Assembly: GCA_034231615.1 (NCBI GenBank)
Contig: CM067298.1
Span: 20,155,478 to 20,219,477 of the forward strand
Direction: 5' to 3'
Length of the DNA stretch: 64,000 nucleotides
From: Meghimatium bilineatum
Lineage: Eukaryota; Mollusca; Gastropoda; Stylommatophora; Philomycidae
The stretch's first letter is position 1. Every line of letters begins with the position of its first letter. A program made the position numbers and the translations under genes. A model generated the notes under the pieces. That model was not told where the DNA came from, searched no databases, and worked only from the letters and a program-made list of their open reading frames with translations. Shown here piece by piece: positions 1,095-49,450 of the stretch.

Positions 1095-1485
1095 CATCAT
1101 CAAGTGCCGTCTCCGCAACGAAGGTTGGCTGCAACGTATCTCCAACATCTCCTGTCTCTTGTCTTGGTGGTACACTCTGCTAGACTGTAACCTGTCCATC
1201 GTGTAATGTTACTCTCCCACTTGTATCTCTGCCTACCTCTTGCTCGCTTCCCTTTGACTTTACCCTCAAGTAAGGTCTTCAATAAGGTGTCATGTCTTTT
1301 AATGTGTCCAAAGTATTTTATTTGCCTGATCTTTATTTCTCTTAGTAGTTCTTTCTTCATATTAAGTGTCTTAAGCACCTCTTTATTTGTTTTCTTCTCT
1401 TTCCATGAACTCATTGTTACAAATGCGTTGAAGTCAAGCAATTTCAAATGTAGCACCAAATTTTGCAGATGATCGTGTTGCTGCA
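1095..1485 (-). mobile_element. LINE 3' end, family A (C-terminal remnant)
   Basis: A 128-codon open frame on the minus strand carries the typical post-RT LINE pattern: IKYFGHIKRHDTLLKTLLEG, then GKRARGRQRYKWESNI, then WTGYSL and TKTRDRRCWRYVAAN. The element ends in a short GAT repeat just after the stop (plus strand catcatcatc near 1090). The copy is 5'-truncated; the sequence before NKEVLKTLN is poorly conserved. A second copy of the same family lies on the plus strand at 47260-47725 and differs by a 36-nt insertion, which makes this copy the intact-site reference. Confidence 0.85.
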
Positions 1486-1691
1486 CATAACTGTGGAATT
1501 TTCGACATTATATGTCAATGTTATGATGCACAATTTTTTTTGATGTACGTCCTAACGATGGCGAGTTTACACGTTTTTGCCGAAAGGGAAAGATCATTGC
1601 TACCAAAGCCACAAGACATCCATGGTAATAAGCTGGAGTAGCCTATCCTGAGTTCCTGCGCTTGGTACTCTCTGATAATACACATTCTAAA
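1486..1691. other. Unassigned spacer
   Basis: Spacer between two oppositely oriented LINE ends. No supported feature was seen. Confidence 0.4.
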
Positions 1692-18234: not shown

Positions 18235-18370
18235 TCAAAACTCCCGCCGTTCGTGAGCTGCTTCTGAAATATAAAATTTCAGTGGATTTCGATATCCATC
18301 GTCTTCGTGGCATACCTATTTTTGCTTTTTCTTTATGGTCTTTATATGATGTCATGTGGGGGGTGCAAAA
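18235..18370 (-). mobile_element. Possible LINE C-terminal fragment
   Basis: The minus strand reads KAKIGMPRRRWISKSTEILY, which resembles the GRPRRRW box of LINE C-termini with G-M replacing G-R. It is short and without flanking support. Confidence 0.35.
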
Positions 18371-18374
18371 GTTC

Positions 18375-18570
18375 TCACATTGCTATCATGTGGACCCACG
18401 GTTAGCAGATAACCAAGATCCTCCTAAAAGTATTTCTTCGTGGTGCACACTGGAAACAGAAATGTAGCAGCTCATGTCGTCTTACAGTTAACACAATTAG
18501 GCTGGTGTCTACGGATGTTAGGCCGTAGATGGAATGAGAATTGCCTGCAAAGAGATAGACAATATCCCCG
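18375..18570 (+). repeat. Dispersed repeat H, copy 1
   Basis: Aligns loosely with 35330-35500: shared gcagataaccaa/gcagatagccaa, tcgtggtgca, ggtgtctacg/cgtgtctggg and then gagatgaaatgagaa-like sequence. Type of element unknown. Confidence 0.5.
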
Positions 18571-18693
18571 ATACCTTTAAGCCAACAACAACCAGCAGAA
18601 CTTTCGACAAACAATGAAGTAAGACGTCTTTGAATTTCGTCTCGGTCAGCCAAATATGCGGAAATATTGGAGGAGCGGCCAATATCAATGTCC

Positions 18694-21386
18694 AGATATG
18701 GGTAGATCTCGCTAAGATATGGGTGGATCTCGCTAAGATATGGGTAGATCTCGCTAAGATATGGGTAGATCTCGCTAAGATATGGGTGGATCTCGCTAAA
18801 ATATGGGTAGATCTCGCTAAGATATGGGTGGATCTCGCTAAGATATGGGTGGATCTCGCTAAGATATGGGTGGATCTCGCTAAGATATGGGTGGATCTCG
18901 CTAAGATATGGGTGGATCTCGCTAAGATAGTGGTAGATCTCGCTAAGATATGGGTGGATCTCGCTAAGATATGGGTAGATCTCGTTAAGATATGGGTGGA
19001 TCTCGCTAAGATATGGGTGGATCTCGCTAAGATATTAGTAGATCTCGCTAAGATATGGGTGGATCTCGCTAAGATATTGGTAGATCTCGCTAAGATATGG
19101 GTAGATCTCGCTAAGATATTGGTAGATCTCGTTAAGATATGTGTAGATCTCGCTAAGATATGGGTAGATCTCGTTAAGATATGGGTTGATCTCGCTAAGA
19201 TATGGGTAGATCTCGCTAAGATATGGGTAGATCTCGCTAAGATATGGGTGGATCTCGCTAAGATATTGGTAGATCTCGCTAAGATATGGGTGGATCTCGC
19301 TAAGATATGGGTGGATCTCGCTAAGATATGGGTGGATCTCGCTAAGATATGGGTGGATCTCGCTAAGATATGGGTGGATCTCGCTAAGATATGGGTGGAT
19401 CTCGCTAAGATATGGGTGGATCTCGCTAAGATATTGGTAGATCTCGCTAAGATATGGGTGGATCTCGCTAAGATATGGGTGGATCTCGCTAAGATATGGG
19501 TAGATCTCGCTAAGATATTGGTAGATCTCGTTAAGATATGTGTAGATCTCGCTAAGATATGGGTAGATCTCGTTAAGATAATGGTAGATCTCGCTAAGAT
19601 ATGGGTAGATCTCGTTAAGATATGGGTAGATCTCGCTAAGATATGGGTGGATCTCGCTAAGATATGGGTTGATCTCGCTAAGATATGGGTGGATCTCGCT
19701 AAGATATGGGTGGATCTCGCTAAGATATGGGTGGATCTCGCTAAGATATGGGTGGATCTCGCTAAGATATGGGTGGATCTCGCTAAGATATTGGTAGATC
19801 TCGCTAAGATATGGGTAGATCTCGCTAAGATATTGGTAGATCTCGTTAAGATATGTGTAGATCTCGCTAAGATATGGGTAGATCTCGTTAAGATATGGGT
19901 AGATCTCGCTAAGATATGGGTGGATCTCGCTAAGATATTGGTAGATCTCGCTAAGATATGGGTAGATCTCGCTAAGATATTGGTAGATCTCGCTAAGATA
20001 TGGGTAGATCTCGCTAAGATATTGGTAGATCTCGCTAATATATTGGTAGATCTCGCTAAGATATGGGTAGATCTCGCTAAGATATGGGTGGATCTCGTTA
20101 AGATATGTGTAGATCTCGCTAAGATATGGGTAGATCTCGTTAAGATATGGGTAGATCTCGCTAAGATATGGGTAGATCTCGTTAAGATATGGGTAGATCT
20201 CGCTAAGATAAGGGTGGATCTCGCTAAGATATGGGTGGATCTCGCTAAGATATTGGTGGATCTCGCTAAGATATGGGTGGATCTCGCTAAGATATGGGTG
20301 GATCTCGCTAAGATATGGGTGGATCTCGCTAAGATATGGGTGGATCTCGCTAAGATATTGGTAGATCTCGCTAAGATATGAGTAGATCTCGCTAAGATAT
20401 TGGTAGATCTCGTTAAGATATGTGTAGATCTCGCTAAGATATGGGTAGATCTCGCTAAGATATGGGTGGATCTCGCTAAGATATGGGTAGATCTCGCTAA
20501 GATATGGGTAGATCTCGCTAAGATATGGGTGGATCTCGCTAAGATATTGGTAGATCTCGCTAAGATATGGGTGGATCTCGCTAAGATATGGGTGGATCTC
20601 GCTAAGATATGGGTGGATCTCGCTAAGATATGGGTGGATCTCGCTAAGATATGGGTGGATCTCGCTAAGATATGGGTGGATCTCGCTAAGATATGGGTGG
20701 ATCTCGCTAAGATATTGGTAGATCTCGCTAAGATATGGGTGGATCTCGCTAAGATATGGGTGGATCTCGCTAAGATATTGGTAGATCTCGTTAAGATATG
20801 TGTAGATCTCGCTAAGATATGGGTAGATCTCGTTAAGATATGGGTAGATCTCGCTAAGATATGGGTAGATCTCGCTAAGATATGGGTAGATCTCGTTAAG
20901 ATATGGGTAGATCTCGCTAAGATATGGGTAGATCTCGCTAAGATATGGGTAGATCTCGTTAAGATATGTGTAGATCTCGCTAAGATATGGGTAGATCTCG
21001 TTAAGATATGGGTAGATCTCGCTAAGATATTGGTAGATCTCGCTAAGATATGGGTGGATCTCGCTAAGATATGGGTGGATCTCGCTAAGATATGGGTAGA
21101 TCTCGTTAAGATATGGGTAGATCTCGTTAAGATATGGGTAGATCTCGCTAAGATATGTGTAGATCTCGCTAAGATATGGGTAGATCTCGTTAAGATATAG
21201 GTAGATCTCGCTACTGATATGGGTAGATCTCGCTAAGATATGGGTAGATCTCGCTAAGATATGTGTAGATCTCGCTAAGATATGGGTAGATCTCGCTAAG
21301 ATATGGGTAGATCTCGCTAAGATATGGGTAGATCTCGCTAAGATATGGGTAGATCTCGCTAAGATATGGGTAGATCTCGTTAAGAT
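18694..21386 (+). repeat. 21-bp minisatellite, about 128 units, with higher-order structure
   Basis: Units are atatgggtggatctcgctaa plus g; variants change tggg to ttgg or tgtg, gtgg to gtag, and gct to gtt. Because the unit is seven codons, the plus strand stays open for 583 codons (18630-20381) and 266 codons (20400-21200) encoding IWVDLAK heptads. These end only where TGG becomes TGA or TAG. A marker pair of variant units (ttggtagatctcgttaag then tgtgtag) recurs at 19121, 19520, 19835, 20402 and 20780, always a whole number of units apart, showing block duplication. Many units contain the palindrome agatct. No recognised protein family. Confidence 0.97.
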
Positions 21387-21399
21387 ATGACGATCCTAA

Positions 21400-21560
21400 G
21401 AGCACATTTTGAATCTGGAAAAAGGAAAACGCGCAAGAGGGCAGCGTTGTGTATGCGAAACGATATTATGGCAACGAATCTATAACAGATCAGCACGAGA
21501 CCGACTAGCAGAAGTGCTGTTCATGTTCGAGAACACACATAAGTCGACATGTCCCATCAT
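21400..21560 (+). mobile_element. Probable LINE 3' end remnant
   Basis: Frames around 21425-21540 give GKRARGQRCV and then NRSARDRLAEVLFMFENT, resembling the 'GKRxRGRQR...SARDRxAWRxMVANT' ending of LINE C-terminal regions. It begins directly after the 21-bp array. Confidence 0.45.
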
Positions 21561-24062
21561 AATTAACCCCAATTAAAATAGGAGTCATGTCTCGGGTATT
21601 GGATAGGCCAATATAAACATGTACTTCTGATTATGGAAAACAGCTTTGAATACCGTTCCCTATTTAACATAGGAAAAGCATGAACAAATGTCGGAGAGCA
21701 CATTGTTAAAAACGTATGTCCAAAGCAGTAATGAGACTCAGACTCTGGATGTTGTGAGCAACGTAGACGGGAAGCAAAACTTTGTCTTCGAGGAAATTCA
21801 AAATCTAGTCTAACTCGACTGTCGCTCAAAATGGCTAAAGTAGAGAGAAATGGGTTCAGTAACCAAGGGCATAGAGGGAAATGTCTCTCTTACACAGGTT
21901 TTGTTCGCCGACTGCGAAGCTTCTCGTCCAGGTTAGGCGCATTCTACCAACGTCTTTGGGAAATAAACGGAATGGGGAGAATCAAAACACAGGCCGTGTC
22001 AGGCGAATTGTTGGAAGACCATTACAGACGAAAGCAGCGAGTGCGTGAGAAATGCTCAGGTCAAATTATTCCAGAAACCCAACCTGTTTGGCACAGGTTT
22101 TGCACAATCTAGCAATGTGTATTCCTGAGTCTAATTCGACTGCCTACGTTGCCCAACATGGCTCATATAGAAAATATTTGGTCTGGCACCTGGGGCTGCG
22201 AAGAGTGGTAATGGAATGGTCATCCTAGAAGTGGAATAGCTTATTAGCTGCGAAGCTCCTCGTCTGGGGAAAGACCAAAAATGGGTGACCCAGGCAAACT
22301 ATTAGCTCATCTCGTGACATGTATCTCCTCTGAGTAGAAGGCTCCTTCGATAGGCAATGCACCTAAGCAGAAAGCTGAAGTCTCCTGAATATGAAAGAAA
22401 GCTCTGTAAACCTCCCCACTACATATAATAAATAAGAGCTTATCGCTCGCAATTACTTGGGTTAGCAAAGAAGAAGTAAATGATGTGATGTCGTTTGATA
22501 TGACACAATATTTTTCTAGAGATAACCTTCCTGTTTAGACAGTTTTCTTTTACATTAAAATCTCTCAGGATTGGTGATTCTTTTTGGTCAATGAAGGTTC
22601 TTCTGTAACATTTTGTTTCGCGTGTTGCAATGGGAACATCAATCGCAGAGCTTACCCCCGACAGTTTTCAGTTCACAGTTTTTAAGAATTTTTTCGCCCG
22701 TAAAAGGTTTTATTGTTTTGGAATGCCAGAACACACTTGTTTGTATCCCTCACAAGAAGGGGTGGGACATGTACTAGCATTATATTACTGTAAACACTAT
22801 ACCTAACCCTACCCCCTCCCATGGTCCTAAAATCTAGACGTATCATGCAGTAGTACCAACTTTCTGCAACTGACGTATTTTCTTAATTCCGTTAAAATCT
22901 CGCTATAATAGCGAAATATAGGGGATAAGCTTTGCAATTATAGAACGGAATTTTCTGTTACTTGTATAGTTGATTGTCCAAGAAACACATCCGCATACTG
23001 CTACTGGGAATATGCAGGCTCGTATACACTACATACATACATAATAATTGTGTACATCACATCTCAACCGAGACATGGAACTATGTAAATAAATAGTTAA
23101 AGCATGAACATTTTCCAGAACAATTAAAACAAGAATTACCAGAATTTCCATGGCAGCTTCATGGCTGCTGATTAAATTAAGCGAAAAAGGATGCAAACAT
23201 GAATCTCTCAATAAACACAAAAATGGAAATATAAAATTATCAGGAAGCACAGATAACTAAAATATTTAATCAGAAAGAGACAGAAGTGTGACGTTCTGGG
23301 AAAACCGAGCGAAAGAAATGTAATGTTTTCAGCCAAAACAACAACAACAACAATAAAACCAACAGATCATTGAAGTTTTGAGACCAAAATATAAAACACA
23401 GAAAAAAATGTGATGATTTCTGCAGAACAATTGTCTACTTGTAAAGCTTTCCGTTAACACAAATATCAGTCATATTACAGAATTTTCATTATTGATGCAG
23501 TCTGTGTAATAGAATAAAACATTTGAATTGTGACAAAATACTGTCTAATCTCACGTCTCACGCAATCTTTTTTATTTATTTTACTAATCAATCTTCAACA
23601 ATATTAAGTTTATGGTGCCATTCTTAATGTTTCTGTTGTACTCTGTATGTCATACGACAATGACCTTTATGGTTTTGATCAAATTATTTATAGAATGAAA
23701 TCCATCGGGTAATAGAGCAACACTTGGCCTTACATCTCTTCATGTCCATGGTCATCTCACACTGAAATAAATGGCTTGTCGCTACAGAGTATGTGTTGAA
23801 GGCGGTACCAGTTTAGCTGTTTCTAACATATAAACACTTCTCTATGACTGGACTTACACCTTATATCTATTTACATGAATTGTACCCACCGTCATCTGAC
23901 AAATGTGAACTATGTATCCACGAATACTTTCATGATAAAATCTCGTGGCTCTGATTATTTTCTTTATTCAATCTTCTATACTAGTAAGTTTCAATACTTG
24001 CATTTTCTAGTCAAGAAGATTCAAGACTGAGAAAAATTAATTTGTTCTTGTGTTGTTATTAC
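21561..24062. other. Long stretch without recognised features
   Basis: About 2.5 kb. A 93-codon plus-strand frame (21831-22112) and a 73-codon minus-strand frame (23029-23250) show no known domain. An ACA/AAC microsatellite of about 20 bp lies near 23338. No SINE, TIR pair or tandem array was seen. Confidence 0.4.
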
Positions 24063-31983: not shown

Positions 31984-32189
31984 GTATAGGTAGATAGATG
32001 AATGGATGGATAAATTAGATAGATAGATTTCATAGACTGATAGACATATAAATGTAAACATATAGATTTAGACAATATTTATAAAAATGTTTACTAGTAG
32101 ACATATAGGTAGATAAATGATATATGAATAAATATTAGATCATATGAAGATATTATTGTGCCTAGAAATTTCCAATGGATTAACCGAAC
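31981..32189. other. GATA-rich spacer
   Basis: Degenerate GATA/TAGA words and no other feature. Confidence 0.4.
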
Positions 32190-32611
32190 TTTTTCTCTAG
32201 GATTGTAACTTTTATTTTTCCGGTTGCAACATACGGCTGTGAAACATGGACTTTAAGTAAAACAGCGGCAAAGAGGATCAACGCCTTCGAGCTGAAATGC
32301 TACAGGAAGATACTTAGAATATCATGGAAGGATAAAATCAAATACTCAGATATTATAAAACACACTGAATATTCCAGAGTGTTGGTTACTAAACACAATA
32401 ACAAAAAGAAAACTACGCCTGTTTGGTCATATAAAGAGACATAACTGTTTAGAATGACAAATAATGGAGGGAAGAGTACCTGGGGAGAGGAGAAGGGGCA
32501 GACCAAGAAGACGATGGACTGACGACATTAAAGATAACATGAATACATCGCTAGAAAATGCAAGCAACATCGCCCAAGACAGAGAGAGGTTCAGAGAGTT
32601 CATTGGGAAGA
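32190..32611 (+). mobile_element. LINE 3' end cut by the scaffold gap
   Basis: Near 32225 the frame reads TYGCETWTLSKTAAKRINAF, then ELKCYRKILRISWKDKIK. After frameshifts it reaches MEGRVPGERRRGRPRRRWTD and DRERFREFIGK at 32611, where the N run starts. YGCETWT and GRPRRRW are hallmark positions of LINE C-terminal regions. Confidence 0.85.
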
Positions 32612-32711
32612 NNNNNNNNNNNNNNNNNNNNNNNNNNNNNNNNNNNNNNNNNNNNNNNNNNNNNNNNNNNNNNNNNNNNNNNNNNNNNNNNNNNNNNNNN
32701 NNNNNNNNNNN
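32612..32711. other. Assembly gap (100 N)
   Basis: Exactly 100 unresolved bases, a conventional placeholder for a gap of unknown size. It follows a LINE terminus directly, so repeat collapse is the likely reason for the break. Confidence 0.99.
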
Positions 32712-34269
32712 GTAATACACAAACGTCTGTCCGATTATTTCTATTCGCTCCGCCAGTTTGTACAAACAAATAAACACAGTACGTATAGATTAACCAGAAA
32801 GGAGCACAGCTCATAGATTTTATCAGAGAAGAAATTTTATAAAGCTTAAAAAGAAATGAATTACCGTATAGTTGTCTATCTAAATCTGAGATAATATGTT
32901 GGTTCAGCCGTACACTTTTCAAATGGTCATACACCATGATATATCATCTATTTTCATCACCGTCTCAAAACCAATATCATATATCACGGTTTGTTATAAT
33001 AGGAAAGCTATAATTTGCACATTTCCAGGATAAACAGATATTATACAGCTTTACATGAAAGGAATATGTTACCAAGGTAAACAGTCTATATTGCTCAATA
33101 TGACTTGAATACAGGTGAAACAATCAATATAATATGATTACATCAATATAATTTGTACTATGATGCAGTCCATATATATTGCAGCAATATAAGTAATATA
33201 AGAAGTGCATCAAGTGCAAACATGTCATCATGAAAATGTAAAAATAAAGCGATCATCTGGTCCTTTAAGAAAAATGCTCAGAAAATCTTGCTAAAAAATA
33301 TATTCAGCAACGAAATTGCAATATATTGAAACAGAGATGTGGGATTAAAACCTTATTTTGGCTATGCACACAGCTGTCAGCGGTAGACATGCGTACACTT
33401 TGTTTTTTAAGCTATATGTGCATTATAAGATTTGGGCGGTAGAAGAAATCTGTTTTCGAATTTTATTTCATTACAACATATTTGTTAGCAGTTTACATTT
33501 CTAACTTAATTTATTATGCGAAGAATATAATCTCCCAGATAAGGAAATCATTCCAAAAGTTAAGATTGATCATATGTGATAGATTCTGTCCTGTTGAAAT
33601 GAGAAAACTGTTCTACCTTGTTAAATATATTCACATCCGACTGGGACTTTAAGTCTGCATACTCTTAGATTGCTGCTGGAACGAAGGGGGATGCACTCTT
33701 GGGAGTGCACCTTTGTGTCATGATGCTCGTTTCTAATCAAAAATCAAATATATTCTATAACGACAAATGGAGTTTTCTTAACCCGCAATACTTGAACAGG
33801 AACACATCAGCAATGGAGACATGACACATCACATATTAAACAATATATTACAATAAAATTACTAAAACATACACAAGAATTTCGGAGATGGTACACAAAT
33901 AAGAATAATAATAATAATAAGACATAACCCGCTAGAGTCTTATAGGAAGCACACTGGAGACATCATCACACACATCCCTCCAAACACTTGTCTTCATCCA
34001 TTCGGACGGGGGTAGAAAATAATACCGGGACCAATTCTTGGTATTGGTCAATGCAGGTTATTCTTTTTCCACCTTTTCTCCCTAACGCTCGACTGTTCCG
34101 TGGAAAATATATTTGGAAAGTGAGCAGTTTCTCGTTACATGTCGAAAAGAAACAAATTTACAGAATATTATTTATTTGTGCCAATACTTTAATGTAGCAT
34201 GTAAATCGAAAGAATTGTTCTCGGTGGCGTCCAACTCCTCTTCGAGACTTGGCTTATTGGCAAATTACA
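32712..34269. other. Unassigned AT-rich sequence
   Basis: About 1.6 kb. Only an AAT microsatellite near 33900-33922 and a small perfect hairpin (tgcactc-ttgg-gagtgca near 33690) were noted. Confidence 0.4.
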
Positions 34270-48560: not shown

Positions 48561-48900
48561 TCTCGAGCTGAGCGTCCCTGTCCCAATAGCGCCTGAGCCC
48601 ATCAGGTACCGAACCCTTTCTCTCTTCAAGTGTATTTCCGGTATAGGAAACCTTGACAGTAGAGTTGGGCCAGGACAAACATCGTTGTCCCTTTTGTGCC
48701 TGAGCCCATCGGGTACGGAACCCTTTCTCTCTGCAAGTGTACTTCCGGTATAGGAAACCTTGACAGTAGAGTTGGGCCAGGACAAACATAGTTGTCCCTT
48801 TCTTGCCTAAGCCTATCGGGTACAGAACCCTTTCTCTTCGCGAGCATATTTCCGGTTTAGGACGGCTCGACATTAGAGTTGGATTAGGTCTTCTTGCTTT
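48560..48900 (+). repeat. 107-bp tandem repeat
   Basis: About three units with tatttccggtataggaaacc starting at 48631, 48738 (acttccgg) and 48845 (atttccggtttagg), exactly 107 bp apart. Each contains cagtagagttgggccaggac and cccatcgggtacggaaccct. Minus-strand frames are open across units with no known domain. Confidence 0.9.
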
Positions 48901-49450
48901 ACCAAACGCCAATGAATGGGTCTGGGTCTCTGCCTGTAAGAAACACAGGTAACTAGAAGCTCGTCTCGAGCTGACGGAGCTTGTAGTTCCCCTTTCCTAG
49001 GGACTTTTCACTTTCTATTTGCAGTTCGCGCTGCCCTCTAGCGCTGTTCTGCCCTTTCATTGTTTCATTGTACTCGGTATGAAATCTATTTGTCTCTCGC
49101 CATGCATCTACCTTTACGTGCATTTTACATTGGCCGCCCCTCCAATGTTCGGACTGGACTGACTAGCTTCACTGTATGTCGACAGTGTCGCTATATGTGG
49201 TGATGCTGGTGGTGTCGGAGATATTGTCTGTCTCTTGTGCAGTCAAATCTCTTTCCATCTGCTACCTCCACATTCTCGGACACGATCCCCAAATGATTTG
49301 GCCAGAATCAGCTCGAGCTGCTGTATTTCTGCTTCCAGGGTGCACAGCGTGGAGGTACATTTGGGATCTTGGTTATCTGCTAACCCTGGGTCCGTCTAGA
49401 GCAATGCGTTCCCTTTGCACCCCTCCCAGCACATGTTTTTTATTCACTAC
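48901..49450 (-). other. GC-elevated segment with coding-like minus frame
   Basis: Base composition stays richer in GC than the surroundings. On the minus strand near 49340-49250 a frame reads CTLEAEIQQLELILAKSFGD, an amphipathic, coiled-coil-like run, but it soon meets stops. It might be the gag-like start of an LTR retrotransposon or unrelated unique sequence. Not assigned. Confidence 0.25.

Follow-up and report, generated by a model that had tools for sequence, protein, structure and literature searches.

The locus raises two questions: where a 21-bp minisatellite of more than a hundred units in Meghimatium bilineatum came from, and how its variant units came to stand in their present order. 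We address both with the window, the whole stretch of 64,000 nucleotides that was analysed, and with the rest of the genome assembly.

Units and variants of the array

The minisatellite occupies positions 18694-21389 of the window. TRF reports a period of 21, 128.3 copies, 94% matches and 0% indels, in agreement with the about 128 units of 21 bp counted in a first-pass annotation of the window. The array and its blocks are as follows.

18694..21389, no strand assigned: 21-bp minisatellite, 128 units and a terminal partial unit GATATG
19115..19513, plus strand: block B1, 19 units, with the variant pair at its start, a near-copy of B4
19514..19828, plus strand: block B2, 15 units, a near-copy of B3b
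19829..20395, plus strand: block B3, 27 units, the last 15 of which (B3b, 20081-20395) are in register with B2
20396..20773, plus strand: block B4, 18 units, a near-copy of B1
20774..21214, plus strand: block B5, 21 units, up to a one-base insertion

Each unit was coded as one letter. The resulting string contains 19 letters, one of which is the out-of-frame unit after the insertion and another the array end, and six of which are common (a, the GTG form, 46 units; b, 29; c, 15; d, 11; e, 9; f, 5). In the first 120 units, variation is found only in columns 1, 5, 6, 7, 10, 18, and 21, which is 7 of the 21 columns. The variant pair TTGGTAGATCTCGTTAAGATATGTGTAG is f followed by e, 5 out of 5 times. 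It recurs at five places, as the first-pass annotation had noticed, with starts at 19119, 19518, 19833, 20400, and 20778, each two bases to the left of the position first given. Its spacings of 399, 315, 567, and 378 bp were correctly read as 19, 15, 27, and 18 units. Their being exact multiples of 21 carries no weight as evidence for blocks, as it had been taken to do, because the only indel of the array is one inserted base at about 21214-21215, and there is none before 21214. Within the first 120 units, 8 have T in column 7; in 7 of these cases the unit directly before carries T in column 18 (Fisher p 1e-5), and in 7 the unit directly after does, so the variant pair belongs to a linked three-unit word. 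Two units look like hybrids and occur once each, one having the GTG form with a GTT end and the other combining TTG and GTG; these could also come from recurrent mutation.

Blocks of many units are repeated

Blocks B1 (19115) and B4 (20396), which are 61 units apart, differ at 2 of 378 bases over 18 units, and blocks B2 (19514) and B3b (20081) differ at 8 of 315 bases over 15 units. The distances of these two pairs are 3.5 and 8.0, against shuffle means of 14.5 and 18.2, and none of 200 shuffles of the unit order was as good in either case. Among the 26 block pairs compared, there were 7 for which no shuffle was as good. B0 had no good fit to any of its seven partners (25 to 158 of 200 shuffles as good), and for the pairs of B5 other than that with B0, 2 to 25 of 200 shuffles were as good. 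From 20795 on, B5 carries the GTG (or GTT) form in column 10 in 0.1 of its units, compared with 0.4-0.55 further left.

The off-diagonal blocks that the first-pass annotation proposed to look for in a self-alignment of the unit string are present: the best off-diagonal alignment scores 25.2, and the maxima are 13.1 among 100 plain shuffles and 18.8 among 100 doublet-preserving ones. The longest exact repeat of units is 14 units (294 bp), at 19199 and 20480. None of 300 plain shuffles equals it, but 7 of 300 doublet shuffles do, the other 293 falling short; with slightly different ends of the string it beats 200 of 200 shuffles of each kind. A constant higher-order period is absent, as the blocks measure 19, 15, 27, and 18 units. 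Over lags 1-64, unit identity is highest at lag 61 (0.41), with a second value of 0.32. The higher-order block structure first proposed for the array therefore holds in the sense of multi-unit duplication and fails in the sense of a constant period.

Forward simulations were run with single-unit slippage and with larger blocks. The array contains 13 repeated mixed 4-unit words, a number that single-unit slippage reached in 0 of 58 and 0 of 50 runs. Identical units are neighbours in 33 of 119 cases (28%), with 24.9 expected at random (p 0.026), and every listed simulation setting averages at least 44%. Two properties were scored together in runs with 12-22 unit types, for settings with at least 15 such runs: identical neighbours at most 5 points above the observed level, and enough repeated 4-unit words. 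Both were seen in 1 of 293 runs with a mean block of 1 (all settings, including random conversion), and in 0 of 285, 5 of 279, and 18 of 229 runs with mean blocks of 2, 4, and 8. The self-alignment, the near-identical blocks, and the simulations together support the proposal that multi-unit blocks were duplicated and that single-unit slippage was not the only process. The poor fit of the simulations to neighbour identity suggests that something mixes the variants more than these models do. We read the history of the array as block copying that may have been accompanied by frequent conversion-like patching, as argued for MSY1, for which the excerpted text of PMC2599865 proposes gene conversion by synthesis-dependent strand annealing.

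The array lies inside a dispersed element

Judged from the homology of its flanks, the array is inside one copy of a dispersed element, an origin that the first-pass annotation had missed.

18358..22479, plus strand: host copy of the dispersed retroposon-like element, about 1.45 kb without the array
18346..18357, plus strand: putative left target-site duplication ATGATGTCATGT, an 11/12 match to 22480-22491
22480..22491, plus strand: putative right target-site duplication ATGATGTGATGT, with one mismatch to the left word
21384..21389, plus strand: terminal GATATG, which is the seed's second word and is followed directly by the right part of the element (ACGATCCTAAGAG)

The species' own genome (1.61 Gb, 32 contigs) was searched with the array and its edges, 40 of 1331 first-look candidates being scored, and several places with both edges adjoining were found. 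We fetched 8 loci from this search and 18 further matching places, and dropped L003, L024, and L025, which have no element flank. Homology to other copies mostly breaks off around 18341-18360 at the left edge and around 22464-22468 at the right edge; in a family with 43-bp arrays it runs past the element edges, unlike in most fetched copies. An 11/12 match between the putative duplications was found in 3 of 9 copies and in 0 of 72 cross pairs. The word adjoins both element ends in this locus (L001) and in L020, and in L012 the right-hand word is found about 30-45 bases past the element end. Several copies carry AAC- or AAG-like tails when viewed by eye. In five of six copies the longest open stretch measures 86-113 codons; in the sixth, L017, which has an insertion, it measures 172. 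Terminal inverted repeats are not evident in 6 of 6 copies (best 12-base end match 7-9/12, with no shuffle control), which speaks against a DNA transposon or MITE. From these features, we call the host element retroposon-like and leave it unclassified.

A second fragment of the element is located in the window, in opposite orientation and about 70% identical (18392-18575 versus 49167-49434). The window also contains frames at 1100-1507 (minus) and 32184-32715 (plus) that we take to resemble tails of non-LTR retrotransposon proteins, and neither has a Pfam match at E 0.1.

Flank-selected copies of the element hold at most one unit

A second genome search used the right flank as a query free of the array, and 40 of 6867 first-look candidates were scored. 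We read the 27 copies whose match starts within the first 7 query bases, leaving out three other copies and later starts. Not one of these 27 has more than a single unit at the site. In several, the site is altered by small deletions or insertions or carries several changes, and TRF detects no array there in any of the 27. Their majority sequence is TGTCAATGTCCC-GATATGGGTAGATCTCGCTAA-GATATGGTGATCCTAAGAG, that is, GATATG-GGTAGATCTCGCTAA-GATATG, one unit between two GATATG words 21 bp apart; single copies vary. The array variant b is the majority unit of these 27 copies, letter for letter. Ten further loci (L009-L018), a biased set chosen by array similarity, have one unit each with 0-3 changes in it. 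Elsewhere in the window, the best match to the seed is 16/21, and shuffles reach 15-17.

Genome-wide, the one-unit site has 275 matches with up to 3 mismatches (138 plus and 137 minus) and its reversed-pattern control 0. A few of these are array ends, among them that of L002 and, with exactly 3 mismatches by our own count, that of the present array. The two-unit pattern has 172 plus and 3 minus matches (control 0), and the 100 matches listed are all in this array or L002. By our own count, this array accounts for 126 tandem pairs, L002 for 46, and L020 for 3. Since these three loci sum to all 175 matches, the 21-bp unit occurs in tandem at three places, or roughly 1% of the sites that are close to intact.

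A pair of GATATG words 21 bp apart is a textbook seed. Three signs of minisatellites derived from transposable elements (TEs) were found here: the element without an array elsewhere, a bounding direct repeat, and an incomplete last unit. A direct repeat of 5-10 bp that bounds the unexpanded unit is the seed criterion in the excerpted text of PMC6947457, and an incomplete last unit is given as a feature of the slipped-strand model in that of PMC3389668.

All 128 array units retain the CpG of the unit, as do 11 of the 24 single-unit copies that could be aligned there, a further 3 being gapped. Of the 13 copies that lost it, 8 have TG or CA instead. Outside the CpG, 47 of 501 aligned positions in the 27 copies depart from the majority form (9.4%), and the window outside the array is CpG-depleted, with an observed/expected ratio of 0.73. 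The retention of CpG in the array and its frequent loss in the copies suggest that the units coalesce recently relative to the age of the element, or have been homogenised. Alternatively, the array may lack methylation.

Probable birth in place and its alternatives

These observations suggest, with high confidence, that the minisatellite arose where it now stands, within a single copy of an old dispersed element, a reading drawn from one assembly. The first duplication would have come from mispairing or unequal exchange between the two GATATG words. Afterwards, with more homology available, entire multi-unit blocks could have been copied. The near-identical blocks 61 units apart, the hybrid units, and the mixed order of variants would be explained by copying of the gene-conversion type or by template switches between repeats out of register. 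This origin would match the direct-repeat model as summarised in the excerpted texts of PMC6947457 and PMC3389668, which describe this mechanism for minisatellites derived from Alu and other TEs. A point against it is that, according to PMC3389668, only 6% of the tandem repeats that derive from TEs in humans are accounted for by the two established models of initiation.

The element might instead have carried an expanded array when it moved, with the one-unit copies as later contractions. The young family shows that arrays can travel in this way, as it carries 43-bp arrays at 20 loci that are mostly 93-97% identical. For the 21-bp array, we consider this quite improbable, as at most one unit is present in all 27 flank-selected copies, three loci account for the 21-bp tandem-pair matches, and L001 and the longer flank pieces of L002 share 74-79% identity, a level also seen in other copies. 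It is also unlikely, to a lesser degree, that the block order is partly an artefact of assembly. The window has 100 Ns, and B1 and B4 have 294 identical bases in common, which is beyond short-read length; against this, the genome is assembled in 32 contigs, the lengths shown being 25-136 million bases, and the blocks are set apart by private variants.

Two functional readings of the array were also weighed. That the array codes for an IWVDLAK-repeat protein is hardly conceivable. The plus-strand frame is open for 587 codons from stop to stop, but two frames on the minus strand run even further without a stop (904 and 786 codons), and array frames stay open because the unit length is divisible by three. 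In addition, the plus frame is interrupted by a TGA at 20379-20381 and shifted near 21214, 3 of 4 common variant sites alter the residue, and this frame, the only one scanned, has no Pfam match at E 0.1. The suggestion that the frame may be incidental is thus borne out by its interruptions, by the longer minus-strand frames, and by the residue changes. Pfam matches of the frame of a neighbouring 42-bp array look compositional and were set aside.

It is highly improbable that the unit is a functional protein-binding or recombination motif kept in phase by selection at two helical turns. Only the unevenness of the variable columns, a post-hoc hand count, speaks for function: variation in 120 units is limited to the seven columns above, 14 change events fall in at most 7 columns (p about 0.01), and 0 of 10 rarer events fall in columns 11-20 (p about 0.001). 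Against it stand the arrays of 18-, 20-, and 43-bp period found at this site. The periods of 31 tandem arrays of the window also speak against it, as they do not favour multiples of 10.5 bp (Rayleigh R 0.04); these arrays have periods of at least 10 and were taken as one hand-chosen row each from 67 TRF rows, with several short rows dropped. The first proposal of a two-helical-turn role for the 21-bp period is thus left unsupported. Moreover, the unit outside its CpG is no better conserved among the 27 copies than the 31 adjacent bases (9.4% against 8.6% divergence), and three units show no strand-folding signal beyond shuffles (z 0.38 and 0.18). No match to RNA families or, with the bacterial code, to tRNA was found, and an exact 26-base pattern has 0 matches in prokaryote contigs and 0 in viral contigs. 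The array is most likely neutral, with no demonstrated function.

It is worth noting, as a side observation, that the 31 arrays make up about 17.8% of the window. One of them, a 107-bp array at 48591-48882, seemingly has the same unit, in opposite orientation, as L027:1288-1584 on another chromosome (compared by eye).

Other arrays at the same site

The same site of the element bears other arrays: 25.7 copies of a different 21-bp unit in L004, 22.9 copies of 18 bp in L006, 16.7 copies of 20 bp in L021, and 43-bp arrays at 20 loci of the young family (by TRF in 16 and by alignment in four). One site is thus shared by the 21-bp unit of this study (three loci), another 21-bp unit, 18-bp and 20-bp units, and a mobile 43-bp unit. 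The other arrays adjoin the same flanks, except that no right flank was recovered in L004 and no left flank in L006. Their differing units and the age of their flanks lead us to regard them as probably independent births, and they seem to use partly different seed words. The stretch around GATATGGGTAGAT might be a hot spot for minisatellite birth, with a motif that may stall forks or attract breaks, but we hold this tentative reading to be rather doubtful. All of these loci were found by array similarity and cannot measure the expansion rate of other element sites. Among the titles listed in literature searches, none concerns repeated minisatellite births at one element site, which is no proof of absence.

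The young family is dispersed, at least about 5 kb long, and mostly 93-97% identical between loci (L033:983-4841, oriented, and L005, L007, L008, L022, L023, L026-L032, and L034-L040). It contains sequence related to the host element (65-70%) and up to four minisatellites (17, 43, 34, and 25 bp) at matching places, with copy numbers that vary by locus. In L013, at about 1948-2430 (oriented), a different part of the element (window 18434-18461) recurs about 14 times at a spacing of mostly 34 bp, which makes a second array site in the host element.

Comparison with known systems

The array is a TE-born minisatellite of a known kind, and no new mechanism is needed. The locus offers an unusually complete picture of minisatellite birth, with hundreds of matches to the unexpanded seed, a few expansions both small and large, and a CpG that marks the expanded units as homogenised or young compared with the element, and forms a natural replicate series for asking why about one seed in a hundred expands. 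Work by Jurka and Gentles, and by Haber and Louis, is cited in the literature on TE-derived minisatellites.

In higher-order repeat satellites, multi-unit blocks recur, and recurring blocks are common to those and to the present array. Unlike in such satellites, the block length here varies, the array is short, and tandem pairs are found at three loci only. With human MSY1 and INS (PMC2599865, PMC2674676), the array shares a variant-unit map and block duplications, the latter described for some alleles of both in PMC2674676. Observed MSY1 length mutants change by 1-3 units, whereas the blocks here, seen in one assembly, have 15-19 units. The closest likeness is to minisatellites in Alu, B1, MaLR, and other TEs, in which, according to the excerpted texts of PMC3389668, PMC6947457, and PMC9659126, the array also lies within a copy of a dispersed element and a short direct repeat bounds the seed. 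Our array differs from these in that its host is not assigned to a named family and in that the same site also bears arrays of 18, 20, 43, and another 21 bp.
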